Made by a program: the position numbers and the translations under genes. Shown here in pieces: positions 19,151 through 64,000 of a DNA stretch of 64,000 nt. Under the pieces are notes generated by a model that searched no databases, was not told the origin of the DNA, and saw only the letters and a list, made by a program, of their open reading frames with translations. Within the stretch, counting starts at the first letter, position 1, and every line of letters starts with the position of its first letter. Source of the stretch: Trogon surrucura (Eukaryota; Chordata; Aves; Trogoniformes; Trogonidae); contig CM036617.1 of assembly GCA_020746105.1 (NCBI GenBank), forward strand, positions 138,969,845-139,033,844, in the 5' to 3' direction.

Positions 19151-19285
19151 TTACCTTTAAATAACCGCAGCATGCAGTTACATATTTGAAATAACCTGGT
19201 CTTAAAAATACATATATACATATTCATATGTACATAGATAGTGTTTTATTTAAAAAGAGAGTAATTAGCTACTAAAACATGGTGG

Positions 19286-26706: not shown

Positions 26707-26829
26707 CTACTGTATGAATGCCCTGAGAAAATCATTGTAGTATATTTTTGAAGACAAATTTTTATCATAGTATTCCAAAATACTGAATAACTCCTCTTCA
26801 GTTAGGTTGATGCTGTACTCATGAAGAAC
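26707..26829 (-). CDS. EFCAB6: EFCAB6 terminal coding exon
   Basis: The exon encodes 40 residues plus a TAG stop: VLHEYSINLTEEELFSILEY, then YDKNLSSKIYYNDFLRAFIQ. This matches the very C-terminus of mammalian EFCAB6 almost residue for residue (human, as I recall: YSINLSEEEFFHILEYYDKT...YNDFLRAFLQ). It is the second half of an EF-hand pair: a helix, a degenerate loop around YYDKNLSSKIYYNDF and the closing helix. The acceptor is ATCTTTTGTAG, the phase is 0, and it joins the exon ending at 30449. The polyadenylation signal follows within 70 bases. It is intact. Confidence 0.93.
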   Translation of the reverse strand, partial: VLHEYSINLTEEELFSILEYYDKNLSSKIYYNDFLRAFIQ

Positions 26830-27356: not shown

Positions 27357-28734
27357 GCTCTGCCTGTAAGCATGCCTTCCTAGCACCTCAGTGAGAATCC
27401 AACTTGAACAAGATGCATCTTGTTTATGCAATGCTAAAAGCCAAGTTAGATTCCTGCATCTTTTGAATATTTCACTCGATGTGTTTTCCAGCACTTCAAC
27501 AGTTTTAATTGTTCTCAATGCCCTGACATGAAAGAAAATAATGCATTAATTTCTGAGGATTATTTCTGGGTTTAGATGCACTTGGGAATTTAAACCCTGG
27601 AAGTGACCAGCAACATGGTGTGTCCTTGTGTTTTATGCCAGTTGTCATTAGTTTTCTGGCAACCTCAGATTAGTCTGGCCCTCTCCCTCTTAACAGCTCA
27701 GCATCAAAAATCGCTAATGACCCTTTGCAGGTAGGCAGTGCAGCCATAAATAGCAGTGTTACTGAAGTTAGTAGAGAGATAATTTCTCTGTTTCAGTAAA
27801 TTAAGTTACCTAGGAGATAAAGGGATCTGTAACTCCACAAATCATCTGATATCTTGTCAAACAGCGGATTAGCACTTTTGTAGTAGGATTTTGGAATCGG
27901 GGATTGCTTCTTGATGTAGATCCAGGAAGACTTATTTTTCTGCTTGTGGGTCTGTTGTGGGGTGAGCTGGATTTTTGTTTGTTCGTTTCGTTTTTTTTTT
28001 CTTAGCTTATATCATATTAGGAAGCTTGATTTGGAAGTTGTTGACATTGCCCTAACTATAAATGATAATCCTTACATGTCCTAGAGGAACATGACAAATT
28101 AAAATCAAATGCAAAGGAGCCTGATCTTCACTCCTTCTCCCCTGAGCCTGTTCTCCTGAGGCAGTGCCCGAGCAGTCGGGAAGCTGCAGTGACAGACAGG
28201 CAGCCTCAGGCACGATGCAGATACGGCCGCATTGATTCATCTTGCTCCTCAGCCTTCACAGAGGAGCAGGCAGGGATTCGGGTTTCAGCTATGTGGCAGT
28301 GCCAGAATGTATCATTCCCACCAGTGCTAAATAAGTAAAGACTTAAAAGAGCATTTCTGTGGCTGGCATCATCGAACGCGTTTAGATCTACCAGGCAACA
28401 ATCGGGCTTCCTGCAGCTTCAGGTGAAGGGGAGTGTGAGAAACATAGCTTATTGCAGCCACACTGAGACTGAGCATCCCACCTGCCAGCTCATCAGATTT
28501 TGAAGTAGTAGTGATACCAAGGGGTGTCCTGATGCACACAGCATTAAATGGGTTCAGCGCCCCACTCTATTTTTATTCCTTTTCTTGCAACTGAATAGGA
28601 AATATTCAGAATCAATCCAGAACAGATAGTGATTATTATTCCTAGATAAAACCTCGTCAAAGATTTTGAAATCGGTGAAGCTAAGCAAAAATCACACTCG
28701 TCATGGATCTAGACGGAGAATCACTGATATCCAA

Positions 28735-29929
28735 CAAGGTGGACAGATGATGGCAGAGCAGTGGATGTGGTCTACCTTGACTTCAGTAAAGCATCTGACA
28801 CAGTCTCCCACAGCATCCTTGCTGCTAAACTGAGGAAGTGTGGTCTAGACTCTCGCGTAGTGAGGTGGATTGTGAACTGGCTAAGGGGAAGAAGCCAAAG
28901 AGTCGTGGTCAATGGGGTGGAGTCTGGTTGGAGGCCTGTATCCAGTGGAGTCCCTCAAGGGTCGGTACTGGGACCAGTATTATTCAATATATTCATCGAT
29001 GACTTGGATGAGGGACTAGAGAGTACTATCAGCAAGTTTGCTGATGACACCAAGCTGGGAGGAGTGGCTGACACACCAGAAGGCTGTGCTGCCATCCAGC
29101 GAGACCTGGACAGGCTGGAGAGTTGGGCGGGGAAAAATTTAATGAAATATAACAAGGGTAAATGTAGGGTCTTGCATCTGGGTAGGAACAACCTTGGGTT
29201 CCAGTATAAGTTGGGGAATGACTTATTAGAGAGCAGTGTAGGGGAAAGGGACCTGGGAGTCTTGGTGGACAGCAGGATGACCATGAGCCAGCACAGTGCC
29301 CTTGCGGCCAGGAAGGCCAGTGGCATCCTGGCCACATCTAATATAGAAGGGGGGTGGTTAGTAGGTCGAGAGAGGTTCTCCTTCCCCTCTACTCTGGCCT
29401 AGTGAGACCCCATCTGGAATATTGTGTCCAGTTCTGGGCCCCTCAGTTCAAGAAAGACAGGGAACTGCTGGAGAGAGTCCAGCACAGGGCAACTAGGATG
29501 ATGAAGGGAGCGGAGCATCTCCCTTATGAGGAAAGGCTGAGGGAGCTGGGGCTCTTTAGTTTGGAGAAGAGGAGACTGAGGGGTGACCTCATTAATGTTT
29601 ACAAATATATAAAGGGTGAATGTCAGGAGGATGGAGCCAGGCTCTTCTCGGTGACAACCAATGATAGGACAAGGGGTAATGGGCTGAAACTGGAACATAA
29701 GAGGTTCCACTTAAACTCGAGAAGAAACTTCTTCTCAGTGAGGGTGACGGAGCACTGGCACAGGCTGCCCAGGGAGGTTGTGGAGTCTCCTTCTCCAGAG
29801 ACATTCAAGACCTGCCTGGACACGTTCCTATGTAGCATTATCTAGGCGTTCCTGCTCTGGCAGGGGGATTGGACTTGATGATCTTTCGAGGTCCCTTCCA
29901 ATCCCTAACATTCTGTGATTCTGTGATTC
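28735..29929 (+). mobile_element. CR1 LINE, 5'-truncated, frame split once
   Basis: This copy begins near RT motif A ([20 protein letters not shown]) and includes [20 protein letters not shown] and the FADDTKLGG catalytic block in the frame at 28761-29402. Around 29330-29360 the frame changes, and the rest of ORF2 continues in the frame at 29354-29845 from [16 protein letters not shown] to [13 protein letters not shown]. The 3' end has two ATTCTGTG octamers. It belongs to the same tail type as the copy at 19286 but is more decayed. It lies antisense inside the last EFCAB6 intron. Endonuclease and N-terminal RT are absent. Confidence 0.94.
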
Positions 29930-30448: not shown

Positions 30449-30598
30449 TTGTCTGAAATCTGCAATATTTAACAGTCCGGTGTTACTTTCACCACGAGAT
30501 TTAAAAGTTCGTTTCATTGGTCTCCAGCAGCGCAGGATCTGGGGCTGAATTCTCAGCATTGCACTGAAAAATGATGTGGTTTGTGGTCCATGACTTGG
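30449..30598 (-). CDS. EFCAB6: EFCAB6 penultimate coding exon
   Basis: It encodes 50 residues in phase 0-0: PSHGPQTTSFFSAMLRIQPQ, ILRCWRPMKRTFKSRGESNT, GLLNIADFRQ. This follows human EFCAB6 (SALLRIQPKIVHCWRPMRRTFKSYDEAGTGLL..ADFR). It is the first half of the final EF-hand pair. The loop SRGESNTGLLNI lacks the first acidic ligand expected in a canonical calcium loop, so calcium binding here is doubtful. The acceptor AACTTTTTCAG and donor GTAAGT are both strong. It is intact. Confidence 0.92.
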
Positions 30599-33108: not shown

Positions 33109-33293
33109 CAGATTTTGTGGCTTCTGTATAAGCACCCTCTGTAGCGGTGAGGTTTCCTGGGGTTTTAACAACAAGACACAGCTCTGAAGGAAGTCATAGT
33201 ATGCAAATCTTCCATTTTTCTTGAAATCATAATTTGTTGTTATTTGGTTAATTTCTCCTTCACTTAAACCCAGATTGAATTTCTCCACTATAT
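33109..33293 (-). CDS. EFCAB6: EFCAB6 coding exon (EF-hand)
   Basis: After a split Asp codon it encodes 61 residues: IVEKFNLGLSEGEINQITTN, YDFKKNGRFAYYDFLQSCVL, LLKPQETSPLQRVLIQKPQNL without the last residue joined. It corresponds to human VEKFNLDISKEECQQLIIKY..FAYCDFIQSCVLLL. An EF-hand loop is visible at YDFKKNGRFAYYDF, degenerate at several ligand positions. The acceptor is TGCATTTCAG and the donor GTATGT. The incoming phase of one base matches the exon ending at 34130. The methionine within the upstream codons is not a start. It is intact. Confidence 0.93.
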
Positions 33294-34304: not shown

Positions 34305-36644
34305 CTAAAAGCACGAGATAATGGTATTTTTTTTTCTATTGAATTTTATTACTTGTGTAGACAAACCACGAAATGACAAATTCATTTTCTCATCTTCCAA
34401 ACTGGAGATTAATGTACCACTTGAACCACTTCTAAGTCTGATTTGAAACTGGTCTGCAAAACTGTAGGTAAAAGTGTGAGAACAACCAGTGTCAAAATAA
34501 CACTATTTAATGGGTCTTGAATTTTTTTTTTTAAATTTAGCTTAATCTGTAAATCATTATCATTTCTTCAGATTGTTCCTTAATAAAGAGCAGATACTAT
34601 GTGAAAAAAAGTTATATAGTACCATCTTAGACCAAATACGAACCAACATAAAGTCACCTTGAGCACTGTGTGCAGTTCTGGGCCCCACAGTATACGAAGG
34701 ACGTTGAGGTGCTGGAGAAGGTTCAGAGAAGAGCAACCAGAATGATTAGGAGGCTAGAGGGTAAGTCTTACAAGGAGAGGCTTAGGGGGCTGGGGCTGCT
34801 CAGCCTGGAGAAGAGGAGGCTGAGGGGAGACCTTATTGCTCTCTACAACTCCCTGAAAGGCAACTGTAGCGAGACAGATGTTGGCCTCTTCTCCCTCATG
34901 AATAGCAACAGGACAAGAGGGACTGGGTTCAAGTTGCACCAGGGGAAGTTTAGATTAGATATTAGGAAAAACTTCTTCACCGAAAGGGTGGTGAAGCACT
35001 GAAGTGGGTTGCCGAGGGAGGTAGTGGAGTCACCCTCCCTGGACGTGTTTAAGAAACAGCTGGATGTGGCACTTCAGGAGATGGTTTAGTGTTAGGGTGG
35101 TGTAGGGCTGTGGGTTGGACTTGATGATCTTAAGGTCCTTTCCAACCTTGATGTTTCTATGATTCTATGAATTACAAAATTACATTGCTTTGATTTGTTA
35201 CGGGAACGACTCAGTTGTGCAGTGGTCCTATGCAGAGCCACAGAAGGGGGAACATGAGAGGATCCTGCTGCTCAGTGTCTTTTTGATTGCTGCCTCAGCA
35301 GTACTCTGGATGAGCTGGAAGCAAAGCCTCACCCTGCCATTGCACGATACATGCATGAGCAATATTTAAGCTTCCAGACCCAATGTATAATCTCATATTT
35401 AGTGAGGCTCCCCAGTGCTCCCTTGAGGGTGTCACTGGCACAGACTTGCTAAAGCCTCACATGCATTTCTGTGCAATGAATGCTGCAGGAACATTCATCC
35501 CGATCAGTGTTCAGGCTGCCTGGGGTCTTTCCAACAGCCATAACTTTGGGGAGACCTGAAGTTACCTTCCTATCGTCTTATAATAACCAATATAGCATTC
35601 ACAGACAGTAAAAAGGAATTTTCTGTTTCTTTCTCTGGGAATTGGATGCATGAAGGATGCATGTAGCTAATCATCTGGGCTTTTCAAGAAAGAACCTATA
35701 GTTGATGCAATAATTGAGCTAGCAATGGGCCAATGTTTAGATTTACCAGCCCTGACAAGTTGTTTGCATCTTTAATTTGCTCAATCTGTTATTTCTTTTT
35801 CAGTAGCTAAACATCTCGATGTAGAACTAGTCAGAAAATCCGAGCGTGTTCCAGGAACTGCATAATTCTAAATATTTTATTTTTCTGTTTTAAGTTTGGC
35901 TGTAGCTAAAGAACACGGAATAGATAGATACAGCTCCACAAGTGGGATATTTAATTTTTCCTCCTGTAATGATTTCTCCATCTTTCTGTGATTTCTCACA
36001 TTAGAGCAAGAGGCCAGCATGGCAGGGGAGAGGACCGAAGTGCATTATTGACACAAAGTATAGGTATGAATGCAAAAATGAAGCAAAACGCTGCATTGTT
36101 AATTCATGTCTCTTACCTCTCTTAGATCACTGTCCTTTATGGCAAATCTATCAGACTATCAGGCATTGACAGCTGTAATTTGGCATCTGCCAGAAAGCAG
36201 GCAAGACCACCAGAACATTTCAGGACAGGCCAGCAAACACCTGTTGGAAAACTGCAACTGCCAATCCTGCCAAGCTTTGTCAGAAAACCACAGATAAGCC
36301 ATCTGTATTTTTTTTTAATGTTGCTTTTTCAGCTAGTGGGCCTTTGTTCTTTGCTCTCAGAAATCTGATTGTGCTGAAACACACAAATTTGATTTGGCAA
36401 ATATGTGGACGCTATTAGCAGGGAATGCTATTGGTATAAATTGACTTATATCCTCTGACTTTAGTGCAGTTACCATGAGGCCGATTTTTGTCATTGTAAA
36501 CCACCTCCTTTGCTTATTGACAGGCTGTTGTGCCTGATTTCATGGGCATTCAATAGGAATACCTTCACTGAGTTCCACAGCTTTTATTTTCAGCCTATGC
36601 ACAGAAATGAAAATCCAGAAAATTCATGAAACAACCACACTTAC
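34305..36644 (-). other. EFCAB6: EFCAB6 intron with antisense CR1
   Basis: It contains the CR1 fragment at 34656-35170, antisense to the gene, starting only about 350 bases upstream of an exon acceptor. No other feature was recognised. Confidence 0.75.
34656..35170 (+). mobile_element. CR1 LINE 3' fragment, 5'-truncated
   Basis: It starts at CACCTTGAGCACTGTGTGCA and encodes [20 protein letters not shown], then [40 protein letters not shown], and onward to [17 protein letters not shown]. One in-frame stop (TGA) at about 35000 breaks the conserved KHW.GLPREV region. The 3' UTR has TGGACTTGATGATCTTAAGG and ends with ATGATTCTATGA. It is of the same subfamily type as the - strand copy at 8231-8646, by the shared [14 protein letters not shown] frame. 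Confidence 0.94.
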
Positions 36645-36872
36645 ACTATTTTGCCCTAGTAGAGAAGATGATGTCTTGGGACATTCAGGCTGAGAAGACA
36701 CATATGAGTCCTGCATGGCACAGGTAAGTGGCCTGGTAGAACTTGTAGAAGTAGTTACACTGGGAGTTCTTGATGGTGTTGCCACAACTTCTGAGCTGAA
36801 TTTCTTCAAATAGTCCTGATACTTCAACTGTCCACCAGCACTGATGTTCACTGCGTTCCGTAGATTTTCAAA
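36645..36872 (-). CDS. EFCAB6: EFCAB6 coding exon (end of EF-hand pair and Ser/Thr-rich linker)
   Basis: It encodes 76 residues in phase 0-0. FENLRNAVNISAGGQLKYQD then YLKKFSSE matches human FDRLWNEMPVNAKGRLKYPDFLSRFSSE, closing an EF-hand pair. The remaining about 45 residues are a Ser/Thr/Pro-rich linker (TPSRTPSVTTSTSSTRPLT) as in the mammalian protein, where this segment is poorly conserved. The acceptor is TTTATGCATTAG and the donor GTAAGT. The internal Met at the ninth codon region is not a start. It is intact, although the exon just upstream is broken. Confidence 0.92.
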
Positions 36873-40262: not shown

Positions 40263-40468
40263 TTGTTCTTCAGTCAGCTGCTGAAAATGTTGGTTACATA
40301 TATCCCAGAACTCCTCTTTTGATACTGTATTATCTTTTGAATATCTTTAAACTCTTGTGCAATTTTGTTAAAGCCAGCAGTCACCACTTCTTCTATCTGT
40401 GAGAGGATGCTTCTCTCTGACAGCTCTCAAGAAGATTTAGGCGGACGGACTTTTTGCCCTTCCCCAGT
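40263..40468 (-). CDS. EFCAB6: EFCAB6 coding exon, damaged (stop codon and frameshift)
   Basis: The exon keeps its acceptor (TTTTTTGTCTAG) and donor (GTAAGA), but the frame is broken. The first part reads TGEGQKVRPPKSS, then a TGA stop at 40427-40429, then ELSERSILSQIEEVVTAGFN and KIAQEFKDIQ; it aligns with human PPPKSPKEMADRELLARLHK AVTSHYHAITQEF. After GATATTCAAAA the homologous frame moves by one base and continues DNTVSKEEFWDICNQHFQQL then TEEQ. The exon is 206 bases, one short of the 207 expected for a phase 0-0 exon, consistent with a single lost base near 40339. The TGA most likely came from a CGA or AGA arginine codon. This is real decay of the exon or, less likely, sequencing error for the indel. 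Confidence 0.85.
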
Positions 40469-43400
40469 CTAGACAAAAAACATACACAGAGAATCAGTAA
40501 TGGATCCGCTGAATAAATTATAAATCGCGGTGTGGCGTTCAGCCAGTCGAAGAGGGAAACGTCCGTGGAGAAGGCGGCCTTCAAGATCCCGCAGGCAGTA
40601 AAACCTGATTCCAGGAATTCTGGCTTGCACCACAAAAGAAAAAAGGGGCCATGCAAGTAGTTAAGGGAAAAAATAGACTCTATAAACGTGATCCAACTGG
40701 TGACAGGCCAACAAAAGCACGGGGCTCCAAGACTGACCTAAACTTTTACAAAGGTCTAAAAAATTGGGTGATCTTACAAAGAGGGCTATTCTGTTAATGC
40801 AGAAAAAAGGGAAGTGAGCGCTAACTAGCCCAAATATCCCAAACGTATTCTTCTCATCTGAATAGTCTTTAGCAAGCAGTGGAAATCTTTTTGATTGAAA
40901 AAGCGCTTCAGTCTGGAGATGAAAGAGAGGGCAATTATGAGCCTTTCCTTTCTAAGTTCCAGGTATATTTACAGCGGTACTTTTTAATCTGGTCATCCAC
41001 AGTAGGGATACGGCAGCCAAACGATCCTGTTGAAAGCTGCAAAGGTACAGAATGTGTGAGGAGAAAACAGACAAGGGGTTGGGTACAAGTGCATTACTGC
41101 CAGCACAAGATGTGCACACCCCCTTTTTTTTTCAGTGAGTTACTTTCAAATCTAACACGAGTGTTCTGCTTTTAAAATCTACCACTGGAGCTTATTACTG
41201 ACTAAGGTCCCATTATGCATTCTGCAGGGTTGAAATCCACACTTTGGGTAAATACAGTAGAAGGTCATACGGCAAGCGGAAATAAAAAGGACAAAATACA
41301 GTTGGGTGGAATAAACTGCAAAGCAAAGCACTACTAGGCTTTATAACGGACATGCCTGAGAATGCCAAAAGCCTAGCTGTGCCTGCGAAAGGCTGCATTT
41401 CATAAAGTTAAATATCAGTGAAATCTATTCAACATTTACATTCTACCTCCAGAATTAGCAGTAAACTTCATTTTTTAAAATGAAACCAGGTTTTACTTAT
41501 AAAATAGGTCTCAGGAATGGCACAATGTGGAATTATAACAAAAAAAAGCAGTGCCAGAATTTTGAAGAAGAAGCCGACTTTCCACCCACTGCACTGTCTA
41601 AACTAAATATATAAAATACCTCAAAGGCAAGGTTTTCACACACACAAGTGGCAGTCAGTTTTACTATAGCTGTGGTAAGAGGTCCTGATAAAAACAACAA
41701 CAAAAAATGTTTTTGCTTCAAAGACATTTCTTTACAGCATATTAAATGTTACTATCATATTTTATACCCCCATGTTTAAGCATAATAAGCTTTGCCACCT
41801 TCTTGCTCCATGCAATATGAAATACCAAAAAAGAAACAGATGGCTTTTGGTCCTGCGCTCCTGTTTCCTTGTCACGTCTCACATGATCATTATAACTGGA
41901 TGGAAAAGAAAATATGTTTCTTAGAGAATTGCAAGAAACCTGCCTTCTAATCAGAAAAGACTCCGCTATCTTCAGATGCAAATAACACTTTTCAATATTA
42001 ACCATGCTTTACATAAAACATACATGCGGGACAGGCATTACAGCTGCATTATTATTAAGAGAAGAAATAGGAGAAGTGGAATCGTGCATGCAGGCACAGA
42101 AACTGATCTGTGCCACAGTCAAAAAATGAAGATTGTTAGGCACGGTCCAGCGCAGAGTACACCTTCTGCCTGCCTGCAACTGTAAAGCAACGTACTGCTG
42201 CTTTTAATTATTCGAATGAAGGCAAAGACTTAAGGAAAGTGCTACTGCCCTGCAAGCTTTAAAGAAACAATTTTGTAAGTGCAAGCTTTTCTGATTTATT
42301 TAATTTCAAGAGCTTTTTGTTTATTTCCTAAGACCTAATGGACTTTCATCTTAAAATGGTTAGAGAGCCAATAAAAAAATAAATCACTTGTTCGTCTTGC
42401 AAACCACAGACTGAAAACTAGAAAACCTTTTATATTCAGTTATTGCATTTATGTTCATCCACCACATGCAGCTAGTCCATTCAGTGTGTATATACGACTC
42501 CATCATCTGCAGCTAAAATAATCACTTTTAGCTGAAATAATGGAGCTGGAGCCTGAAAGCTCAGACTCTGGACTGGGTATTTTGACATTTAAGTGCCATT
42601 TCTGCATCTGAAACTAACCTTGTACACAGTGTGGGGAGGTTTCTTCGCTTTGCGGTGTCCGACTTTAACCTCATGAGTGAAAGGGAGAAACAGGAGCGAA
42701 GCTGCCTCAGAGCTGTGCAGTGGACGCCCTTAGTGGTGCCTATAGATCATTTAGAGAAGAGTTTCCCTTGGACAGAAAAGGGGTTACCTCTCTTTTAGTG
42801 ATTTCGTGGTATTCGCTGCCATGTGCCCTGCTCAACCCACCCAGCTCTGTACTTAGAGCACTTCAGAATTTGGGGGCCGGGACTCTGCAGCCTGATCCTG
42901 CTTCGCAGGTTCTCAGGCTGCCGCGTGGTCTTTGCGCAGTGCCTGCCCCACCACAGCCTCATGCCAGGTCACGCTGTAGGCTGTGAAGTCCAGATTACCT
43001 GGCCGTCCTGCTCAGCTCTTCACAGGCTTTCTCACCCTTCCTAACAGAATTTGAGAGTGCCCTGGGAGGACCATGTAAGTCTACTTCTTCCTCCTGCTTT
43101 TGCCAAGGTGGCGGGGGCGTTATTGCGAGGCTTTTCTTATAGTCGACCCTGTGTAGTTCATTTGCTGTTCAAAGCAGGGCTGTATTTTTCTTCTTTAGAA
43201 AGTTTCTTGCACAGCCTCATGTCCTTTTCTATAAATGGCATAACTATGCTGATTAGTAATAAAAGAAGGCTCCACCACCCACACCTGCTCAGCGAAGCTC
43301 CATTCCTGCAGCTCCTTCCTGTTTCTGAAAGATTCTGCTGTTAAGAGGAATTCTTAATTAGAAAGTAAATTGCTACCTCAAGATAAATTACAAATTCTCT

Positions 43401-46400
43401 TCTGTCCCGTCATGAGCCTGGCCTCCCTCCCCATCTGGGGAGGCTCAGAAAGAAAAGGTCTTGGGAAACAGCTTATACAAGAAGTACCTTGTACCTTCTC
43501 CTGGAAAAGGATGCATTTTCCTCTTCGTACATGAGAATGACCTTTGCCAGAAGTAATCATCCCTTTGACAGTTTACACAATTTTACAGGTTTCTGTGTTA
43601 AGCCCATGGGCCCTCCTTTGCTCTAACAACATGTATCTTCAAGTTGTTTTCCATAAATACTCTTCCCTAAAGAGGCATGGAATCTGCAGAATTAGGTGCC
43701 TGAGCATGGATTGCAGTGGAAATGGATATTCTTCTCATGTTTGAACAACCAGTAGTTCACCAGCCAGCCTGTCCTAGCTCTCAGAGTCTTAGCACTATAC
43801 AGAAGCTTGTATTTTATCCCTGGGTTACAAGCAGAGCTATATCCTCACCTGGCAGTGTAAGTTGGCTGCTGATTTACACCTGCTGAGGATTTGATAGCTG
43901 GTGTGCAACAGGAGCTTGCAATAAAAAACCCAGTTATAAATAAAAGATGAAAACTCCATTGAGGGACATTCTGTAATGCACCATTTTACTTTTGACCAAC
44001 TATTTGCAACAGACATTCAGGTTGTGAGGTCACATTCACAGATTAAAACACTCTTTCTAGTGTTTAGAATATATAATGGTATATGATGGTTTGACAAAAT
44101 GATTTGACACAGTGAGTTAAAGGTGGCCCTTCTCTGCCCTGTCTAGAAAAAAGCCACATTCCTCTAAATGTAATTAAAATAACTGTTGTGCTAAATAACT
44201 GTGAAATACTAAGCCCAGGTAGAACTGGGCAAAGAAGCAGGAGCCACAGTGAGGCTTTCCCGCTCCTCTGCCTCCCCAGCAGCACCCAGCCCATCAGCAG
44301 TACGCCTGATGGCCTAATGCTATGTTTCCTACTTTCCATTACCCCTATGTTCTCCTTTTCCTCTACTCTTAGTAGCTACTGAGTGAAAGGTTTCCACCCC
44401 AAGGAACAATTTGTCATTTTAAAATTCCATCAGACCCTTTTCTTCATTACTCAGAATGGAGAAGGGAAGTGAGGCTTTGGCAGGCTTGTTCAATGGGGAA
44501 AGATCCCAAGACAGATATCCTGGCACAGTGGGGGACACCACATTGTAGTCATGGGGGAGGACACTGCACAGGAGAGCAGGGGCAAGGAAGGGAAATTTTC
44601 AAACCAGTTTTGCTATAGATAAAGAGATATAGATATAGATTACATTGCAGCGTAAGGAAAGCTTTAACGTTTCTCAGCCTGAAGCAAGTGTCATACAGGA
44701 AAATAAATGCAAACGTGCAGGTATCCCAGAAGGGGTATCTCCCTGGAGCACAGCTGTTCTACGTGAGGACAGACAAAGTTTGTTGAGCTGCTGTCTGAGG
44801 GTAGGGACATAATGAGCAGACCTGCGAATCTCTGCTTCTGGTGCAGTGGGTCATGACTGATGATAGTCAGTTGTCTGATCAAATCAGTGGCCCAGAACAG
44901 GAGGTCCCAGACTTCCAACAGATGAAGACAGTGAGTAATGAACAAATCTGTAAAGCTCCCACCCCTAAGACAGGGAAAAGCATCACCTCTGTTGAGCAGG
45001 TTATTATGTATTCCTGCTGCAATTTCACAGCTAGATCATGGAAGCAGAATGAACTTCAGCTCCCCACACCTGATCACAGTGCAGAAGGGCTGGGTTACTA
45101 ACACTGTGGAAATTAGGAAGAAAGGCTGTGGAGTGACTGAGGGTGTCACTTCTCTGTTGCATGGGTTTTTTTGAGCTCCAAACCTGTATGGTTACAACAG
45201 GTACCATGCAGCATTGCGCTCTGCATTTCATCGCTTGCAGGAAAATCACTGTTTGGGAAGTCACAGCGCAGCCACTCTTCTCTTGTGGAGCTGGAAAGCT
45301 GTGTCAGAGCTGTCTCCTCTTGGTTTAAGAATAGCTTCCAAGATCACAAGGAAGCTGTTTTGTTTGCCTTTTACAGGAAGGGAATGTAGCAGCAACTGCA
45401 GAGAGCAATAGGATGTGAGAGCAAGTGGCTTTAGCTCTGTAGACTCTCCACCAGCAACATTCCCAACAAAGACGGAGATACTGATGATGTACCCATATAC
45501 TCACGTACCCACTAGTGAATAGGAGAGATTAGTCCTGGGTCTCAGTCCTGGGACCAGGAGGCACAGTTCTCACAGTGCCAGGCTTTAAGAGATGTGAACT
45601 TGCAATACTGGGGGGAGTCCTCTGATAGGTACTGGTCCAAGGAGAAGCAGGATGCTCTCACTGGCAGCAGGAGGAGAATCAAGGATCAACAAACCTACAG
45701 CTTTGCAGGAAGGTTGATTAGAAGGAACTGGCTGAAAACAAAATGCAGTGGGCAGGTGAAGAAGGCATTCTGCAGCATGAGACAGGCTGCAGAGAAACTC
45801 AGAATGGGAGGCTAAACAGAAATGGAGAATTTGGAGTTGAAACAGAATGTTTCAAATGCCTGAATCAAATGCAATTGATATTGACATATTCTGCAAAATT
45901 TTTCGCAAAGAAGTCCTGGAATTCAATTTGATTTCCAAATTTCATCATTTAAGATGAAATCACATTTTAAGAAAAAAAAAACAAACCACCAAGCTTTACT
46001 ATGTTTCTACCCATTCCAGTAATTCCCTCTGTCAGCTGAAAGACACATGTGTTAGCAAGCCCCTAATTAGCCCAGTTTCTGCCCTTGAACAGGCACAAGC
46101 AGTAATCTGTCACTTTTCTCTGTCATCTCCTCAACCTGCCCTGCCCTCTTTCTCCTCACTGCTGGACTTGACAGGTGAGAGTTTACTAAGCTTGCAGTGA
46201 ATCACTCCAGTCTCAGCTCCAGGAAGTCGAAACCAACAAATTTTCTGGCCCTGATCATAATCCTTCCTTTCTCCATATACTCCCCCCATAGGCAGCTGTG
46301 CTGATCCTGTTCTAGACCTGACCCTGAACTATTGCTTTTAACGTGCTCTTTACTTTTTCTCCTTCCATGTCTGGAACAGCCTGCAGTGGGGAAAGACACA

Positions 46401-48423
46401 TGAGTACATTTTCTTTTGGAGGAGTCTGATTCCCAGCTGCAGCTTTCATTAGGCCAGACTGCATTAGCCACTTACTTTAATGCAGAAGAGCTCCGCTCAG
46501 GCCTTATTAATCATAATACTGGCATCCCAGCCAAAAAAAAAGTTCATGATGTATATTCCTAGCTCCAGGGTCTGGACTTTTACAAACAACCTCAGAGAGG
46601 CCACTCGTGGCGAATGGCATCCCACCTAAGACAATGTCCTCTCTGTTTCCTTCCTCAGCTCTTCTGCAGTTGGTTAGCAACATCCAAGCTAAGTGCCATA
46701 ACCATGGTTCTTTGTTATCTGAGTATTAAGCTGCAGTCACATAGCCTAAAATACTTTACATTTCTTTAACTCTCTAGAATACACACTACAGCATCTGTGT
46801 GTGAGCAGGATGCCCACTGAAATATAGCTCTGTAGAGCTGTAGGGCTATACCGCACAAAAATAGAATTAATCTCATCAACATGTCAAAGCCATCAAAAGA
46901 TCCACGTGACATATAAAACATTTAGAAATTATTTCCACAAGATTTTTTGCATCTCTTCTTATTCATCGCTTTTCTACGAAAAAATACAACTTAAACCAGT
47001 ATGGCTTTGGGGTTTGTGAATGTTTGCCTTTGTGGTAGTGAGTTTTATTTATGAGGTGCCATTTGAGACAAAAGTCATCCCAGGCTCATACTTTACTAGT
47101 TCAGTAAATTTTCCATACTTTAATGATCAAGCTGCATACTTTACTTGTTACTTTTTAATATACTTCAGTGATCAAATTGTATAGCATAATGATCAGTTTT
47201 CCTAATGTGCCTGAATGAGTTGCATACCTCATTAATTTAGATACCTACTGCACAGGCCAAAATTGTAGCATGTTTGGATGAAGTGAATAATTTAACAACC
47301 AGCCTTTTCTCAGAAAGTACACAGGAGCCCAGGAATACGTGTGAACCCAGGGTGGGATGAAATTGCAAAAACATGGGAAATTTTGGGTTGAACTCAAAAA
47401 GAAAACATGAGATTTGAGAGCATCTGGAAGCTGAAGCAGCACTGTCAACCTGGTTCATATTTGTTTTGTCTTTTCAATAATGCTACCTTGTGGATTAATT
47501 TGGGGTTCTAATGATGGATTCACCCCTTCCACCCATAACACATCAAAGAAAACTGTTCAAGGTGAATGTTCAATATTGAAAAAAAAAAGTACAGGCTCCA
47601 GTCCTGTCACGGACCAAGTACTTCTTGAAAGATATGGAGGTAGCTTATTTTTTTGCTAAGTTGAGGTGAAAAGTGTTCTGTGTCTTGGAGACTAACCGTT
47701 AGAAAGACTTCATATTAAAATGTGCACTCTTGCAAAGTTTGATCCCAGGAATTACGCAGCTTGTCAAGTTGTTAAAGAGGCTTAGCACCTACCTGGATGC
47801 TAAGACAAACAAACCCTTCCCTTAAAAAAACCAGCTACCTATTCTAGAGTTAACATGAAAGTTTGCTGGTGGGCCAACATTACAGCACACAAATACATTA
47901 TTAAAATAATTATACAGATATGTTATATTTCATACAATTGGTCTTTGTGCTGATATGATTCAGTGGAAACTCACTGAATTTATATCAGCATAAAAGCAGG
48001 AAAGGGGAAATGTGGTATTTTCTAACCTATGCAAACTATGCAACTATTTTACACTTGAGAACCATGTAATCTATTATATCTGCTAAGACTGCATTTTAAT
48101 TTTAATAAGCTGAAAATATAAATATTTTAAAATCCCCAACTATTTTTTAAATAACTATAATTAAATGTAGCCCTGCCACTAAGGACAAAGTAACAGTTGC
48201 ACTACTATAAATATTAATGCTAAATTTACAGAGAATAAAATACATTTAAACAACCTTATAAAAGTTTGAATAAAGCTACACTTATAATAAGCACTTTGGT
48301 AAAGCTATGCCTATTGGTAACTGACACGCATAGATAAAGTCTTTAACTTGCTACAAAAGCCTATAACACATTACAAACATTTAGAGCGGTTTATGGGTCC
48401 TCCTTCATTCGAAACCTGTGGTC

Positions 48424-48446
48424 CCTCCTCCTCCTCCTCCTCCTCC
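48424..48446. repeat. (CCT)n microsatellite
   Basis: Seven to eight CCT units, polypyrimidine on the + strand, within the long EFCAB6 intron. Confidence 0.9.
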
Positions 48447-49061
48447 GATGAATTACTCAAGCCCTGCAATTACTTGAACTCTCACAGTCTTAAACTCGGG
48501 ACGTAAAAAGGCTGAGACAGATCTCACTGGCTTTCCAGCTTCTCCTTTATGACACAAGATTTAATCACCATATAGTTCTATACGGATTTGTTTAACACAA
48601 CATTCCATTATTGCCATGGCAATAAAGTGGTAGGCTTTTTATATGGTTTTCCATCGGGTGATGATTATTATTTTTCTCATTTTATTTGTGCTTTGAGCAT
48701 ATACTTTTGAAAATGAAACATAGTTGCTTCTTAGAACATAAGATGTAAGTTAATGTGTTTATTGTTGGTTTGTTTTTTTAAACGGCTTTTTATCCAGCCA
48801 GTAACAAGTTTTCACATTCTTAGTTTAGGAATGAGCTGTAAGGTAATGTCTTCTGGCCTCCTGCACCCTCAGATCTACTTATACCTGCTTTCCATTGGGT
48901 ATGGCAGGCTAAGGGGAAAGAAGCCTGAGGAAAGGAAAGGACAGTGAAATCAAACTAGGACAGAGATTTCTTTTACTTACACTGTCTGATAATATTCCTG
49001 TTATTTACAAATGTTCTAAGAATTGCTGCACTGACAAAAGGATGTGATTATGAACTGAAGG

Positions 49062-49313
49062 ATCATAGAATCATAGAATCACAGAATGACCTAGGCTGGA
49101 AGGGACCTTAGAGATCATCTAATCCAACCTCCCTGTCACAGACAGGGACGCCTCTCAACTAGATCAGGCTGCTCAAGGCTCTGTCCAACTTGGCCTTGAA
49201 TACCTCCAGGGAGGGGGCAGCCACAGCCTCTCTGGGCAATTTATTCCAAAGTTTTGCCAGCCTCGTACTGAAGAATTTCTTCCTAAGATCTAATCTAAAT
49301 CTATTCTCCAGAT
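49062..49313 (-). mobile_element. CR1 LINE 3' fragment, 5'-truncated
   Basis: On the - strand this encodes the ORF2 C-terminus (FRLDLRKKFFSTRLAKLWNK, then LPREAVAAPSLEVFKAKLDR, then ALSSLI and stop). Its 3' UTR is GTTGGATTAGATGATCTCTA and it has about three ATTCTATG-type octamers. The subfamily differs from the other copies by the AVAAPSLEVFKAKLD sequence. It is the only CR1 in this part of EFCAB6 in the sense orientation. Confidence 0.92.
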
Positions 49314-49873
49314 CTGTTCCTGCAGTCTGTGCCAAGTGAATGAGTCCAAGTGAGGGGCTGTGGACACAAACCTCTGCAACAGAGAAACTCCAGTTTAATT
49401 TGAGTTGATGCAACATGCATATTCAAAGTATCAGAACTCTGTCCATGACTGCAGTCAAGATTTTCTTTGTACTTGACTAATCTCTGTATTTGACCTTCTC
49501 ACTACGCTGCCATTATTATCTGACATCTAGAACCTGGTGGACTTCCCACTCCGCTCATTTTTCTGTCCAGCCGCTGCTAGCCCATCTAGATATGTTAGGG
49601 GTCATCAAGCATATTTGGATATCCCATGTTCTGCATTGCTCAGTTGGGGCAATCTGGCTGCATCCGTGGTCATGCTTTCTGCTTGCCATGTTACAGATCT
49701 AAATCTACATGAGTGCATGAGTTTACTTCTCAGAGCAGTTTGCAAGATCAGGGCTTCGTGGAGTTCAACAGAGGACAATATAAATATGTGTGAATATCGC
49801 ATGCTTAGCCACTTCTAACACATCAGATTGTATCTTTTAAAGAAATATATTATAGCTTGGTAGATCTTCTTAC

Positions 49874-50058
49874 CTCTGTGAAGTGTTTTATGTTTTCCAG
49901 GAAATCTTTCCAGTCTACTGTGAAGTCCTCATGAGGGTTAAGGTTCTTAAGAAGGTGTCTGAACTGTTTGATAATTTAAAGCAGAAATGGTTGAGTACTT
50001 GACGAGACTCCAGTGCTTTAATTATCCCAGTGTCTTCTTCATCAAACAGAGAAAATGC
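49874..50058 (-). CDS. EFCAB6: EFCAB6 coding exon, damaged (frameshift)
   Basis: The first half reads AFSLFDEEDTGIIKALESRQ then VLNHFCFKLS, with an EF-hand loop DEEDTGIIKALE. After TTATCAAA the homologous frame moves and continues QFRHLLKNLNPHEDFTVDWK then DFLENIKHFTE. Splice sites are good (acceptor TTGCTTCTCAG, donor GTAAGA). The exon is 185 bases; the neighbours require phase 0-0, so it is one base short of a multiple of three. Human EFCAB6 has two residues between the Ser/Thr and the Gln (TDNQ), which suggests a four-base loss near 49967. The shifted frame soon meets a stop. It is damaged, but otherwise well preserved. Confidence 0.87.
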
Positions 50059-50639: not shown

Positions 50640-51404
50640 ATTCAACAAGGCCAAGTCTAAGGTCCTGCACCTGAGTTGGGGCAATCTTCATTATCAATGA
50701 GACTGGGGGATGATGTGCTAAAGAGCAGCCCCCCAGAAAGGGACTTGGGGATGTTGGTGGATGAAAAGCTGGACATGAGCTAAAAATGCACACTCACAGC
50801 CCAGAAGGCGAATTGCATCCTGCATCAGAAGATGACCTCGAAAGAGGTGATTCTGCCCCTCTACTCTGCACTGGTGAGACCTCGCCTGGAGTACTGTGTC
50901 CAGCTCTGGAGCCCTCAACACGAGAAGGATGTGAACTTGTTGGAGTGGGTCCAGAGGAGGGCCACAAAAATGATCAATGAGCTAGAGGACCTCCTACATA
51001 AGGACAGGCTGAGAGAGTTGGAGTTGTTCATCCTGGAGAAGAGAAGGCTCCAGGGAGACCTTACAGAGGCATTCCAGTGCCAGAAGGGAACTACAGGAAA
51101 GCTGGTGAGGGACTATTCACAAGGGTGTGTAGCGACAGGATGCGAGGCAACGGTTTTAAACTAGAGAGGGTAGATTTAGGTTAGATGTTAGAAAAAAGTT
51201 CTTTACAATGAAGGTGGTGAAACACTGGAACAGGTTGCCCAGAGAGGTGGTGGAGGCTCCATCCCTGGAGGCATTCAGGGTCAGGATGGATGGAGCTCTG
51301 AGCAACATGATCTAGTGAAAGATGTCCCTGCTCACTGCAGAGGGGTTGGAACTAGATGACCTTTAAAAGTCCATTCCAGCCCAACATATTCTATGATTCT
51401 ATGA
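50640..51404 (+). mobile_element. CR1 LINE 3' fragment, different subfamily, decayed
   Basis: It begins in the segment TTCAACAAGGCCAAGTCTAA GGTCCTGCAC, just after the FADD block of ORF2. It encodes [60 protein letters not shown] and the ILEKRRLQGDL segment in the frame at 50832-51164. After that the frame breaks several times before the 3' UTR and a single ATTCTATGATTCTATGA tail. The LQGDLTE and CTGGAGAAGAGAAGGCTCCA sequence differs from the LRGDLI copies, so it is another, older subfamily. Confidence 0.9.
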
Positions 51405-53988: not shown

Positions 53989-54184
53989 CTCGCACAACAA
54001 ATCATAAGATGATGCAACTATTTCTTTTATCTTAATTAGGGTCTGTTCTAAAGTGAGTGCTGCAAAGCTTGCAGGTGGTGCAGCCTGCTTTTGTCTCTGT
54101 TGGTACTTAGACGTTCTGCCATCATCAATTGCTCTCAGGAAATCAAAATAAGAGAGCGTGCTGTCATGAATGCTGATTCCTAAG
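53989..54184 (-). CDS. EFCAB6: EFCAB6 coding exon (second EF-hand of a pair)
   Basis: After completing a split Gly codon it encodes 65 residues: LGISIHDSTLSYFDFLRAID, DGRTSKYQQRQKQAAPPASF, AALTLEQTLIKIKEIVASSY, DLLCE. The first 20 residues form the degenerate second EF-hand of a pair, with the LSYFDFLRAID motif repeated throughout EFCAB6. The rest is the linker helix leading into the next pair (human PPVSFATL...LSKIKEVVTSS). The acceptor is GTTTTTCCCTTAG and the donor GTAAGT. The exon ends in phase 0. It is intact. Confidence 0.93.
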
Positions 54185-57068: not shown

Positions 57069-57224
57069 CCATTTTGAAGACTGCTGAACTGGTCATGATC
57101 AAGGTAATAGTTGAATTCTTGTATTATCTTGTGCAGGTCACATACTGTTATATAGCCATCTCTATTTTTATCCACTTTATGAAAGGCCTTATTGAAATCT
57201 TGGAAGTAATCCCTAAATTTATCC
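57069..57224 (-). CDS. EFCAB6: EFCAB6 coding exon with a near-canonical EF-hand
   Basis: It encodes 51 full codons: DKFRDYFQDFNKAFHKVDKN, RDGYITVCDLHKIIQEFNYY, LDHDQFSSLQN, and then the first two bases of Gly. The loop DKNRDGYITVCD has Asp, Asn, Asp, Gly and Ile at positions 1, 3, 5, 6 and 8, and Asp rather than Glu at position 12, so this EF-hand may truly bind calcium or magnesium. It is the first half of the pair completed by the exon at 54184. The acceptor is GCGCTCTTTCAG; the donor GTTTGT is weak. The exon is intact and is the most upstream EFCAB6 exon I could find. Confidence 0.9.
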
Positions 57225-59779
57225 CTGAAAGAGCGCAGATGTTTATTTTAGCTCCTTTTGTAAATCAGATAAAAGGATACAAACAAATATACAAAATAGG
57301 GGTGGAGGGTCAGAGAAAGATTTTGAGCTTATTTATGTGTGGTAAGTCCATATAATTTATTCAAAGATTGCCAAATCGTTCACAAAAAAACCTCAAACCC
57401 AACACCCCCCCACCCCCTCCACGTAATCTGCACATGGAATTGCATGGCTGAAGCCTCCCCTTGTAAATAAATGCTACTTTGGTGATTAACTGGCTGCTCT
57501 CCCTGTTCAGAACTGCAGATATAAAACATAGTTCTCTCTTTCAAAGCCTGTCATGTTCAGAGTTACAAAATGTTTAATACAGCTGTTAAAATGATAAAGG
57601 TTTGGCAGCAATTTCTGCGATTTGAGGGTCCTGAAACTTTGACATATAAGAACAACTATTTCAACGAAAACAGTTAGACTTGACAAAAACCTGGAGTAGC
57701 GCAGAGTCTGATCCATGCCCCAGGTGAAGATGTGCAGGGCTTCAGCTGACTCACGTGGACTTGGGATCAGCGTCTCTGAGATATTGATCATTTCTTACAC
57801 ATGACTAAATTCAGGCATCAAAATCTTGACTCTTCCTCTCACTTTATTTGTCACTTACATTTCACTGACGTCAGGGACCTCTTGATCAAACTTTGGAAAC
57901 CCAAGCAATGTGCCTCTCTGCCTCTTGATTCAGCTGAAGCCTCTTCACATTTTTGCGCGAGAGGACGAGGCAGACACAAACATCTCTCGCTACCGCATGT
58001 CCTCAGCTAGCAAAGTGGCTTAAGATTAGTGTAAGTTACTATAGTTATGAATTACATCTTCATGTAGATTTCCAACTACACATAAACTACCTACATATAC
58101 TCAGCACTTAAAAGATGCTACCCTTATGGCAAAACCTACGAGTTTGAATCTGGGTTAATACCTACAGTCACATTCCATTTGATTTGGGACTACTCTTTCT
58201 GACAGCCCTAGGGTACAGAGGGTGGAGGCTGGGTTCTTTAGAGAGTCAGGTTTCATAGTATAAAAGGCTTATTACAGTGACAACACAGTTCACCAGTGTA
58301 ACTCACATAATCAGGCACGATTCGTTTCCTCAGCTTCTCACCAAGCCTGTCTGTGGATCTAACAGCTCAGACCAGTTCACTCTGCTCCTTGTTAGATCAC
58401 CGTCAGTCAGCCAGCATCCGAGCCTTTTATTTTCTCTTTTGTATGAATACTGTGCAGTTGCTTGTTATAAGTCTAACATGGGACATAATAAATTTCATAT
58501 GTTTCTTAGCAATACTCAGTAAGTCTTTTCAGAGCTCTTACAAACTCTCATGGATCTCCTCAGAGGCGTCTGCTCTCAGCTCCAGTTACTAGTGCTGTCT
58601 TTCCTATTACAGCATTGCAGAGTCCTTGGTTTTCCATTTGTTTTCAAGAAGCTGTAAGTTCAGTACAGCTGTTACAAGAAAAACACATTTTCCTTGACAA
58701 TTACGACTGCTAAGAATCTGTCATTTTGGAGTTTGCATATGAACAAAGAGTAATTTCTCCACAGTCCTCAGGGTCCAGGAAACACCATGGTATATGCAAA
58801 CAACATTATCTACCTTAAAAAAAATCTGAATTATGGTATGACTTAGGTGCGTTGATAGGATTTTAATATCAGATCCATTGTACCTTCTGTTGTTATGTGG
58901 ACTAAATTGAGAGTAGCGGGACTCTGCTTAACCAAGTTTCGGCTGGCAAGAAACCCTTCTTCAATAGCATTTCTCTCGGGTTCAGTGAAAGTAAGGATCA
59001 CTTCTCAGCTTCACAGCTTGCTCAAACTGTTTTTAAACAATTTTAACTTAGCCTGAAATTGTATTCAGGATATATGGATATCCTTCATTTCAGGTCTGAG
59101 CTTCTGAACAGGGCACCGCTACTAGACAAATTTTTGGGGACTCCATACCCGAACAAACAGAGCATTAATATATCCCGTAATATGTTCTGACATTAAATTC
59201 AATCCAAATGCAGTTTCAGACTAATGTCCAAGCCCGATACTCACAACAGGTTCAGATGTATCAACATATTGCCTTTTCTTCCACATTTTTCAGCAGCCTC
59301 GTGAGTGTTCTGTACGCTGTGAGGCACATCAGGTCATAACACATGACATCATGATCTGTTACCGTTGAAGTGAGTGTCCCTAAACACTTAAAACTGATCT
59401 ACTTCATCATATGGGCCTGGTATGCAATGCCCTCAGTATCCAAGAGATGGTAACCTTCATGATTTTCTGCGTCGTGTCATCCTCTGCACAACCTCACCAA
59501 TCCTAGCCCACTTCCTTCTGAAATAGGGTAATTTTTTTTTTTTTAAATTGTATTTCCAGTTCGTATGTCATTCTCTATGTTGTTTCCAAGAGCATTTCCT
59601 CAAATGGTCTGGAAGGCATGTCTTTGATCAGGATTTTCTCAAACTTTATTGCCAGATTGAATGGTTTTACCTGAAAGAACTCCATTAACAAGAGTCACGT
59701 ATTTTTTATATTCTGGAAACTGGACTTTCTTTTACTTACAAAGTGGCTTGTCTCAGCTCTGACTGTAACAGATTAATAA
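57225..59779. other. Probable EFCAB6 intron, nothing else supported
   Basis: No further EF-hand exon was found on the - strand. Around 58850-59700 the - strand has discontinuous protein-like frames that may be the downstream remnant of the Gypsy fossil at 59780-61970, but I could not assign them to a domain. Confidence 0.5.
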
Positions 59780-61970
59780 AAAAACTATGTGACATTTCTT
59801 ATAATCAGAGAACAGAGCCAGAGCTCTACTGTCTTGGTCTACGTCTCGAATCGTGACGTTGACACGTATCCTAGAAATACAGGCCGCATATTTCCATTGA
59901 CTAGTTTTTCAATAATTCTGCCTGTAAGTCATCTTTTGAAGACTTTGTCTGTCTCCCAGTGCCAATATACATAATAACAGAAGTTTTCTATATTAATGCC
60001 TTTAATTTGGGAATTCTTTACCCAGATTTACAGCCCAGTATGTCCATTTTATATGCTAATCCAAAAGCTACTTGTACAGATTGCCCGTGTGATAGGAACT
60101 CCGATGTAACACATCCTAACAGGCTTCTGGACACCCTTGTTATCTTTGCAGATGGCACATTTGTAATAACTCTGTTTTATCTTGTTGACAGTTAATATTT
60201 TATATTATTTCTGTGCCGTAACATTTGTATTTCTGTCTAATCATACTTCGCAGACCCTCTTAGATTTTTCAGATTCCCTACTGGTTTTCTCTCTACTTGA
60301 TATCTTCACTATCTGTTTAAGCTTCAAGCGAATGGCTTTTCCTACACTTCACTGTGAAAACTCAGGAATGGACTTTAAGCCTACAGGAAGTCTTCGAAAG
60401 CAGAATCTCCTGTACAGCGGTCTTAAAATGCAGTGTTAAACTCCTGTCATGCAAGGAAGTTTGCTTAGATCCACTAGAAGAACCTGAATTTGTAATCTTT
60501 GGAAGAATATATTAGTATTTCTAAAATTGTATGCAGCTTTTTGCCAGAAAATATCCTTTACAGGTCAGTGTCTGCTCTGAAATACATACTTAGCCCCACT
60601 GAACTCAAGAACAACCTCAGTGACTTGCCTCTTGATCTTGCTATTGCTAATTGGTGCTTCGATTTTTAAACTTCCGCCATCACTCCTACATAAACTAACT
60701 CCTTTACGAGCTTCTCTCCCACAACCAGAGGCATGTTCCTAGCAGCACACATTGATGTGAAAATACAGCTCTATATTCTGTGTCTACTTATTTCTGACAC
60801 TAAAAATTTCTGGGTACTGATCTCCTGTGTTTATGGTTCTTTTGTCAGACTCACTGCTTTAACCAAGCCCAGGGCTAGGCATATTTTAGAGCAAATATTA
60901 GCTCCTTCTGACTATAAACTTAAAGTACTTCATTTATCTTCACTTTTCAGTTGAAGTTCCTGCAGTCCTTTAGTAGGAATTAGATTCTCGGTGGACACCC
61001 TCAGCTTCAGTAATCTTTCTTCATATGTAAAGATTCCTGAGCCAGATTTTTTAGTGTGTTTGGAGATAACATTAACCGAGCACCAGTTCTGAATCTAGAG
61101 GTGTTTTTTCTTAGTCTACAGCCCTCTTGTGTGGCTTTTGCACAGAATTTCTATGTGGCCTTTTGTTGTGTTGTTGGTTTGTGCACCATCACAGAGATCT
61201 GAGGATGTGGAGGGTACTCTCTTTTGCTTCTGCTTTTCCAGTTGCAAGGTCTTGCAAAATAACTGTATTTCTTAGAACTGCTGTGGAATATCTAATCTCC
61301 TGGACATAATGCGAATCTGTCAATTTTCATATATTTCACTTGGACTACTTGCGGATAGCTCTGAAGACTCTCTTCAAAACTCTCCTACTTTCCTTTCCTG
61401 ACAGACAGAATGTCCTGTTCCCATTCTTATATTTCTGTGCTGTCTGTTATTACTGTCCTAGCTTGACTAAACAGATTATTCTATGTTTCCTTTTTTTTTT
61501 TTTTTTTTTAAGATCCTACCTTCCTGGGATCTTTTCTGTATCTTTGGATCTTTGATGCCAATCACTATCTGATTCCTTAATATGGAACCTCTGAAAACGT
61601 CATAGCTACTTGCCTGATCCGTTATTTAAAGATCAGCTAAAAATTCTTCAAAGGATTCCTCCTTCCACATTCTCATATGAAAGCTGTGTCTTCTAAAAGT
61701 TCAAGTTTCCTTGGGAGTGCAATATTCCTTCAACTTACTTTCTGTAGCTGCATGGATTGCCCTCTCACCCTGTCTTGGTTTCATGCCATTAAAAACTTTG
61801 ATAGCTCCTACTCCTGTAATATTCCAGAAAATAGTTGTGAGCTTCCTTATGATTAATCTAGCCACTCTATATAGGTTGCAAAGCATGATGTGGATCTTTT
61901 CAAGGAAACTGCAATATTGCCAGTGTGGTTTAGAGTCTCTAAAGGCCCTAAAGAGCTATCACCTTTTCTC
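59780..61970 (-). mobile_element. Ty3/Gypsy-type retroelement fossil (gag and pol remnants), broken
   Basis: On the - strand, in the order expected for a Ty3/Gypsy element, I see a gag capsid-like stretch at about 61560-61960, with KLKEYCTPKET and SFEEFLADL motifs typical of such gag proteins. Further along are a protease-like stretch near 61030-61100 (a CNVIS-type context) and a reverse-transcriptase-like stretch at about 60340-60700 that includes FRRLPVGLKSIPEF. It is broken throughout, with more than ten breaks, and no LTR was recognised at either end. Family assignment is by motif order and remembered gag sequences. Ty3/Gypsy elements are not known to be active in birds, so it is probably very old. 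The rest of pol is unresolved and may extend to about 58.85 kb. Confidence 0.65.
61491..61509. repeat. Poly(T) tract
   Basis: Nineteen consecutive T on the + strand. It lies within the retroelement fossil and is a simple homopolymer expansion. Confidence 0.9.
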
Positions 61971-64000
61971 TTACTTTCAAATCTCTTTTTTTCTAGTTAA
62001 TTCCTTCTTCTTTTTCACGTTCTGCTTCTGTTACTACGTGGTACTTGGTTTACACTCAAGGCATTGGAGAGAGCATAAAAGTACACTGCTGAATGTGCAC
62101 ATCAGTCAGAGTGCACTTGCATTGCACTCAAGCCAGCTTTACAGTCTTGAATCTCCATGTATCTAATTACTGACTAACCAGCTCAGACTCCTTCAATCTC
62201 CTCTTAGATTTGAGACCCTGGAGATCAAACATCTGCTAATTACATCTCTGAGTTTTATTATGTTCAGAAGCCTACAGACTTTCCAGCAGAGACACAAATC
62301 TAAAATCTTCTGACAGAGGGTTTGCTTTTTGTGAGTTACTCTTACGTGCCACAGCTTAAAACCTACAGCTTCACGGTGATTGCGAAGGGGCAACGGTGGA
62401 GAAGGATGGGTGCTGAGCCCCAGCAAGAGACTGAGAGAGTCACATCTAGGAAGCAGGATACAGCAGCCTAAAAGCCAAAACCAGCCAACCACCCCAAGGG
62501 CAGTTTGTGATTTCAAGTGAGAGACTGATGTCCTCCAGCCCTCGAAGACTATTGAGCACTGCTCCTTCCCTCTTGCAAGCATGTGCTTTGATGGTGTGAT
62601 ATGGTCCACGTTGTGCCCTCATCGTAAAAAAATTTTGGAATTCTTTTCAACTATATATTCCTTTCAGTACCACTCTTCATCACCATTATCATCTTCCACT
62701 GAAATCTTCTCAATGAAAGCAAAGAGAGAAGTTAAATCAAAACAGTTTTTGAGATCCATATTTTTTGAAAACTGAGGCATTCAATATTTTGGGGCTGATA
62801 AAAGATTTCCAGGCAGTAATTATTCCACTCACAGCAGTAAATATGTGCGTGAAGAAAATGAGGATTGAAACCATAGATCAAGCTACAATGCCAAAAAATA
62901 ATATTTCTTACAAATGGTTTGTGTTTTTCTTGAAGAGCTGGTGAGCCACTGTTCAATGTCTGTTTCTAATTTGGGCGATTTGTTCCCGCGAGTTACAACA
63001 AAAGCAAAAGGGAAAAAAAAAGTGCACAGCAGTATGTTTCGAATTGTAAGATGTCCAGAGTTTTTGTCTGCCTCACAGTGTGTAACCACAGGACACTGGA
63101 ACTGCTCCAGAGCTGTTAGGGTGAGGTTCGCTGCCCTTGCAGTCAATCAGAAGAAGGGACACAGGGTGGATGCAGCCATTGTGCAAAGAGAAATGAGAGG
63201 GCTTAAGGTAAGATCACAGAAGGAGGCATGGGTGCTGCTCCCAGTGCTGCTGAAATGGGTCTTGTAACCAGCAAATTCACACCTCGGGGAAATACCTCCT
63301 CCGAGGCTGAATTTGACAGGTGAAAGGAATCAATTTTCCAACTCATTGAGAATGAAGCCCACTTCATTCCCAATGAATGACACACATGGATCACCATGGT
63401 TGAGTTTTCCTGACCGAGAGCAGATCTCCTTACGCTGACCTTTACAACAGGAGGGCTCAGTGCCCACCTGTGCTCCTTGTATCTCAGCTGTCTTATGTGG
63501 TCCTGGAGCTTAAGGCTGACACTCAGCTAGATCACTGTCGTCGCAGCCACCGCCTGGATGGATTTCATCCAGGTCAGAAAATGACCGCAGATTAGGAGTC
63601 ATTTATGACTTTCCAAGGCCTTACAGGAAACCTGAGGAGTTCAGAGTCCTGGAATCAACTCTTTGTGTGCCTCCAGTTTTCTGAGAGAGTAAAGCAGACA
63701 GGAACTGCTCTCACAGGACTTCTTCCACTGGCCAGGAGATGAGTGAGGAAGTGTAGGAGAAAAAAAGAGAACATTCAGTGGAACTGAAAGGTGGCAGTAA
63801 TCAATAATAACACATACTTTTGCAGACCATAAGCAATTGAGCTGTGAACTCATTCTCAGGCAAAGCTGCAGATGTCAGAAATTTTATAAGATTAAGAACA
63901 GAACTGAATGCCCTGCATATATAAATCAAGCAAAGACAGAATCTAACAAATAATTAAACATGATTTTTGAAAGGGATGTAAAAGTCCCATCTATGGGCTT
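61971..64000. other. Sequence at the right edge, nothing supported
   Basis: Probably EFCAB6 intron if its 5' exons lie beyond the window. The 138-codon - strand frame at 62193-62609 and the 117-codon + strand frame at 62914-63267 show no domain, no signal and no EF-hand. No repeat family was recognised. Confidence 0.5.

Follow-up and report, generated by a model that had tools for sequence, protein, structure and literature searches.

EFCAB6 is a microtubule inner protein of the doublets of cilia and sperm (PMC8595878, PMC10663601). In chicken, in situ hybridisation places it in the ciliated cells that line the choroid plexus (PMC7331728) and a proteomic study of embryonic vestibular cells lists it in hair cells only, in two of three experiments and with 3 spectra (PMC3672136); since both message and protein are reported in this bird, a loss of EFCAB6 would not be bird-wide, but lineage-specific. 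Other ciliary genes of birds have undergone losses of the type considered here, namely WDR93 and CFAP46, which landfowl, geese and further birds have lost (PMC10445033). WDR93 decayed independently in several lineages and shows stops, frameshifts and decayed or partial exons beside intact ones, whereas CFAP46 was lost through large segmental deletions (PMC10445033). A further case is STK33, a gene possibly linked to spermatogenesis that is described as a unitary pseudogene of neognath birds, inactivated clade-wide for ca. 100 million years (PMC4509753). Among the openly accessible papers listed for EFCAB6 in connection with chicken, birds or pseudogenes, none has a title on its loss in birds.

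The window analysed here, a stretch of 64,000 nucleotides from Trogon surrucura, carries on its minus strand the 3' part of EFCAB6, of which we placed nine exons totalling 1604 nt. These exons and the associated features are, in the order of transcription:

60391..60584, minus strand, probable decayed exon relic, equivalent to cattle residues ~748-807, with in-frame stops and frameshifts
57069..57224, minus strand, exon 57k, open, beginning at cattle residue 959, with a weak donor (TGG/GTTTGT)
53989..54184, minus strand, exon 54k, open, phase 2 in and 0 out
49874..50058, minus strand, exon B, 185 nt, phase 0-0, with a net shift of the frame, lacking 4 nt relative to mammals
49967..49971, minus strand, deletion site of exon B, between the codon at 49971-49969 and the two bases 49968-49967
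40263..40468, minus strand, exon A, 206 nt, phase 0-0, with a stop and a frameshift, encoding the first half of PF08976 (EF-hand_11)
40427..40429, minus strand, in-frame TGA of exon A, lysine in the five mammalian chains shown
40338..40348, minus strand, region of the second lesion of exon A, 11 nt versus 18 in mammals, exact place not fixed
36645..36872, minus strand, exon 36k, open, phase 0-0, encoding the second half of PF08976
34130..34304, minus strand, exon 34k, open, with a weak donor (TAG/GTTTGT)
33109..33293, minus strand, exon 33k, open
30449..30598, minus strand, exon 30k, open, phase 0-0
26707..26829, minus strand, last coding exon of EFCAB6 (26k), including the stop codon, matching cattle at 29 of the 36 residues compared

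A conceptual protein translated from the nine exons, with X at the lesions, matched cattle EFCAB6 (7rro) in a search of PDB with an E value of 7e-171, and residues 1-537 of the query aligned with cattle residues 959-1497 with small gaps. Eight PDB sequences were retrieved at 1e-20 or better, six of which bear the name EFCAB6 or EF-hand calcium-binding domain 6; we take the other two, 8otz_3 ('EF-hand domain-containing protein') and 1wlz ('CAP-binding protein complex interacting protein 1 isoform a'), to be EFCAB6 fragments as well. The same query, with X at the lesions, matched PF08976 (EF-hand_11), a domain typical of EFCAB6, scoring 88.8 bits (cut-off 21.7). Given this best and long match among solved proteins, the gene in the window can be assigned, from its sequence, as the EFCAB6 orthologue. 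Introns are kept, all of them GT-AG among the nine exons, and the locus is not a retrocopy. MPPED1 and SULT4A1 are the expected conserved neighbours of EFCAB6; a motif scan, which is a weak test, revealed no convincing metallophosphoesterase exon below 27 kb of the window, and Rfam yielded no matches at the gathering score.

The window is also populated by repeats. A CR1-type 8-base repeat occurs 12 times in it, allowing up to two mismatches, versus 0.07 expected occurrences, which fits a bird genome, and related repeats occur in other sauropsids too. The plus-strand frames at 19269-20372, 28728-29845, 34652-35002, 50784-51164 and 11351-12426, and the minus-strand frame at 8298-8633, resemble reverse transcriptase fragments of CR1-type LINEs. 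Several of the CR1-like reading frames are followed by ATTCTRTG repeats, and a perfect 20-base tandem repeat in 2.2 copies (TTGTAGTGTAGGGTTAATGG) is found at 12433-12475, near a CR1 3' end.

Three lesions break the frame of EFCAB6, in exons B and A. Exon B begins with AFSLFDEEDTG and can be read in its own frame for 47 residues, the last stretch of which is off-frame, until a stop is reached at codon 48; past the lesion, the proper reading is recovered in another phase and extends up to the end of the exon. A preliminary description of this DNA had assigned to this exon 185 nt and a net frameshift, which we could corroborate. Comparison with mammalian lengths, taken from five chains of which three are near-identical cattle-type sequences, indicates that exon B keeps 2 nt where mammals have two residues, and is thus 4 nt short of 189. 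In exon A, codon 14 is TGA (40429-40427) in place of the lysine present in the five mammalian chains shown, and a second break occurs near 40339-40338, after which the reading goes on in another phase. The bird exon contains 11 nt between the QEF and KDNT codons, against six residues (18 nt) in mammals; its 206 nt are thus 7 nt short of a mammalian reading of 213, the place of the deletion within the codons not being fixed. Hence, the TGA proposed earlier for this exon stands, but the accompanying loss of a single base from 207 does not agree with the 7 nt out of 213 implied by mammals. As the sole reading of each indel, a one-base loss was rejected, because mammals imply 4 nt in exon B and 7 nt in exon A; one base lost from 207 in exon A is possible only together with a further in-frame loss of two codons in the bird line. 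The two deletions sum to 11 nt and do not jointly restore the frame. By eye, we also identified a possible cryptic in-frame acceptor past the TGA of exon A (ctctcacag/ATA), which would skip the stop; it does not rescue the exon, however, because the second frameshift is not bypassed.

These lesions could be sequence or assembly errors, consisting of a wrong base and two small indels, in an EFCAB6 that is sound in all other respects. With ancestral lengths of 186 and 207, each indel would indeed amount to one base at short A runs; by mammalian lengths, however, 4 and 7 nt are missing, unlike the usual homopolymer error, and the TGA in exon A needs a separate substitution. Besides, there would be three errors in 391 nt versus no frame-breaking one in the 1213 nt of the other exons, and we consider this explanation improbable.

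Seven of the nine exons are open, with 1209 coding nt counted as devoid of stops and frameshifts, and an acceptor AG and a donor GT are present at exons A and B as well as at the seven others, except that the last exon has no donor. The intactness of the other readable exons and the retention of splice sites, both noted in the preliminary description, are thus upheld, with GT-AG at the two broken exons and at all the introns seen. The donors of exons 57k (57068-57063) and 34k (34129-34124), on the minus strand, are both GTTTGT and score 1.9 and 4.1 bits, respectively, versus 7.1-11.8 for the other six, by the donor weight table used here; judged from their sequence, they are possible instances of early splice-site decay. 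The seven open exons and the conserved GT-AG sites argue against inactivation, because the lack of stops and frameshifts in these exons suggests that EFCAB6 may still be under constraint.

A rival reading is that EFCAB6 still works and that only A and B are being dropped, resulting in a shorter protein with the frame kept from exon 54k to exon 36k. Both exons are in phase 0-0, so that skipping one or both would keep the frame, the seven other EFCAB6 exons are open and, in the study of WDR93, exon 6 of that gene appears to be dispensable in birds (PMC10445033). Against this, A and B have retained their splice sites, and their conservation matches that of the two intact exons used for comparison (57k and 54k). 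The PF08976 domain also spans the junction between exons A and 36k, which encode its first and second halves, and PDB entries 5d67 (named EFCAB6) and 1wlz match across this junction; without exon A, the match begins at profile position 58 of 105. Removing exon A would therefore cut a folded domain and leave half of PF08976, which argues against a tidy loss of just these two exons. Likewise, the clustering of lesions in A and B is not significant: when three lesions are thrown on the nine exons by length (1604 nt), they fall in two exons or fewer with P 0.31, and in one exon or two adjacent ones with P 0.087. The probability for the specific pair A and B is 1.4%, but this pair was picked after the fact. 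The damage is thus not significantly concentrated in these exons, and three lesions in no more than two exons are unremarkable by chance. The preliminary description had left open whether the gene or only two exons were being lost; with clustering unremarkable and PF08976 split, inactivation of the whole gene is the better supported of the two, and the confinement of the loss to A and B appears rather unlikely.

Exons A and B retain clear similarity to their mammalian counterparts. Alignment scores to the equivalent cattle pieces, obtained with one method, are 133 for B and 117 for A, versus 101 and 123 for the intact exons 57k and 54k, in agreement with the earlier claim that the damage looks recent and that the coding similarity is kept. 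The bird also keeps 26 of 56 (B), 23 of 49 (A), 18 of 40 (57k) and 20 of 43 (54k) of the residues common to two mammals, that is, 46-47% in the broken exons and 45-47% in the next two upstream, in a comparison that covers these four of the nine exons. Identities to cattle only, for parts of exons, are 29/36 in the last exon, 12/20 in 30k and 7/22 in 36k, the latter piece being below A and B. Since exons A and B show no more visible drift than their intact upstream neighbours, the damage looks recent from its sequence. Crude ages, which rest on assumed indel-to-substitution ratios, are of 0.018-0.026 neutral substitutions per site (ranges 0.004-0.077) if all nine exons are free to decay, and of 0.073-0.108 (ranges 0.015-0.314) if only A and B are.

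Upstream of exon 57k, the segment 60584-60391 (minus strand) had an ungapped profile score of 45, which was not reached in any of 120 shuffles (mean 29.8, maximum 41.3); the ungapped controls for this stretch scored 29.7 (other strand), 34.0 (reversed) and 27.3 (complement), and no score along the plus strand of the window exceeded 33.0. With gaps, the segment scored 63 versus a maximum of 49 in 25 shuffles, but the reversed sequence, which was among the three non-shuffle controls, reached 57. The segment probably represents an older and badly decayed remnant of the exon equivalent to cattle residues ~748-807 in EFCAB6. Given this likely relic, damage to EFCAB6 is probably not confined to exons A and B, and the restriction to two exons in the preliminary description would no longer hold. 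In the upstream 57225-64000 (minus strand), cattle residues 826-957 were not found, with scores equal to or below the highest of 25 shuffles; the cattle pieces 826-910, 905-957 and 635-703, sought in the upstream 6.7-6.8 kb, all remained at or below that level, whereas exons that are present score above 100 in the same kind of search. A match to residues 858-910 at 63113-63037 (37 versus 34 or less in three controls) was discarded because it is in the wrong order, upstream of the relic, and 25 shuffles reach 39-42. Either the exons for cattle 826-957 are lost, or they are sited beyond the end of the window and the relic is due to chance.

The relic at 60.6 kb and the failure to find cattle 826-957 would also fit a two-step loss, in which birds of this line would have lost the middle exons first, leaving a shorter protein comprising the last third under constraint that is now dying via B and A. 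We regard this sequence of events as unlikely; if it were true, EFCAB6 could function at the doublet microtubule with nothing but its C-terminal third.

In our opinion, the probable explanation is a recent inactivation of the whole EFCAB6, as an in-place, intron-bearing pseudogene. As in unprocessed (unitary) pseudogenes, introns are kept and the coding sequence carries one stop and two frameshifts. The locus might instead be a dead segmental duplicate of an intact EFCAB6 sited elsewhere in the genome; a second set of EFCAB6 exons did not appear among the 60 best tblastn matches within the 64-kb window, a result that bears on these 64 kb only. We deem a duplicate very improbable. Under whole-gene inactivation, the constraint on EFCAB6 would have been lifted and lesions would then have built up, by chance in two neighbouring exons. 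Any message made would run into an early stop in exon B, at some distance ahead of the final exon junctions; it would be degraded or else yield a protein without its C-terminal part (approximately the last quarter, in cattle numbering); EFCAB6 would then be absent from the inner junction of doublet microtubules. With one sequence, the inactivation may represent a loss in the bird line or a null allele of the sequenced individual.

Compared with cattle EFCAB6, the bird gene encodes the same protein along residues 959-1497, but its frame is broken in two exons (PMC8595878, PMC10663601). It resembles WDR93 in being a bird ciliary gene with stops and frameshifts and with some exons still clean; WDR93 was, however, checked with reads, relatives and RNA, whereas EFCAB6 is known here from one sequence (PMC10445033). 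Unlike the large segmental deletions described for CFAP46 in the same source, it contains a stop and small deletions (PMC10445033). The likeness to STK33 is the inactivation in birds of a gene possibly linked to spermatogenesis, although STK33 was lost ca. 100 million years ago and clade-wide, while the damage to EFCAB6 looks recent (PMC4509753). EFCAB6 would thus join the piecemeal losses of ciliary genes in birds, leaving the understanding of such losses unchanged, and a bird lacking this gene would serve as a natural knockout for its role in cilia and sperm, to be set beside birds such as chicken that have its message and protein on record.
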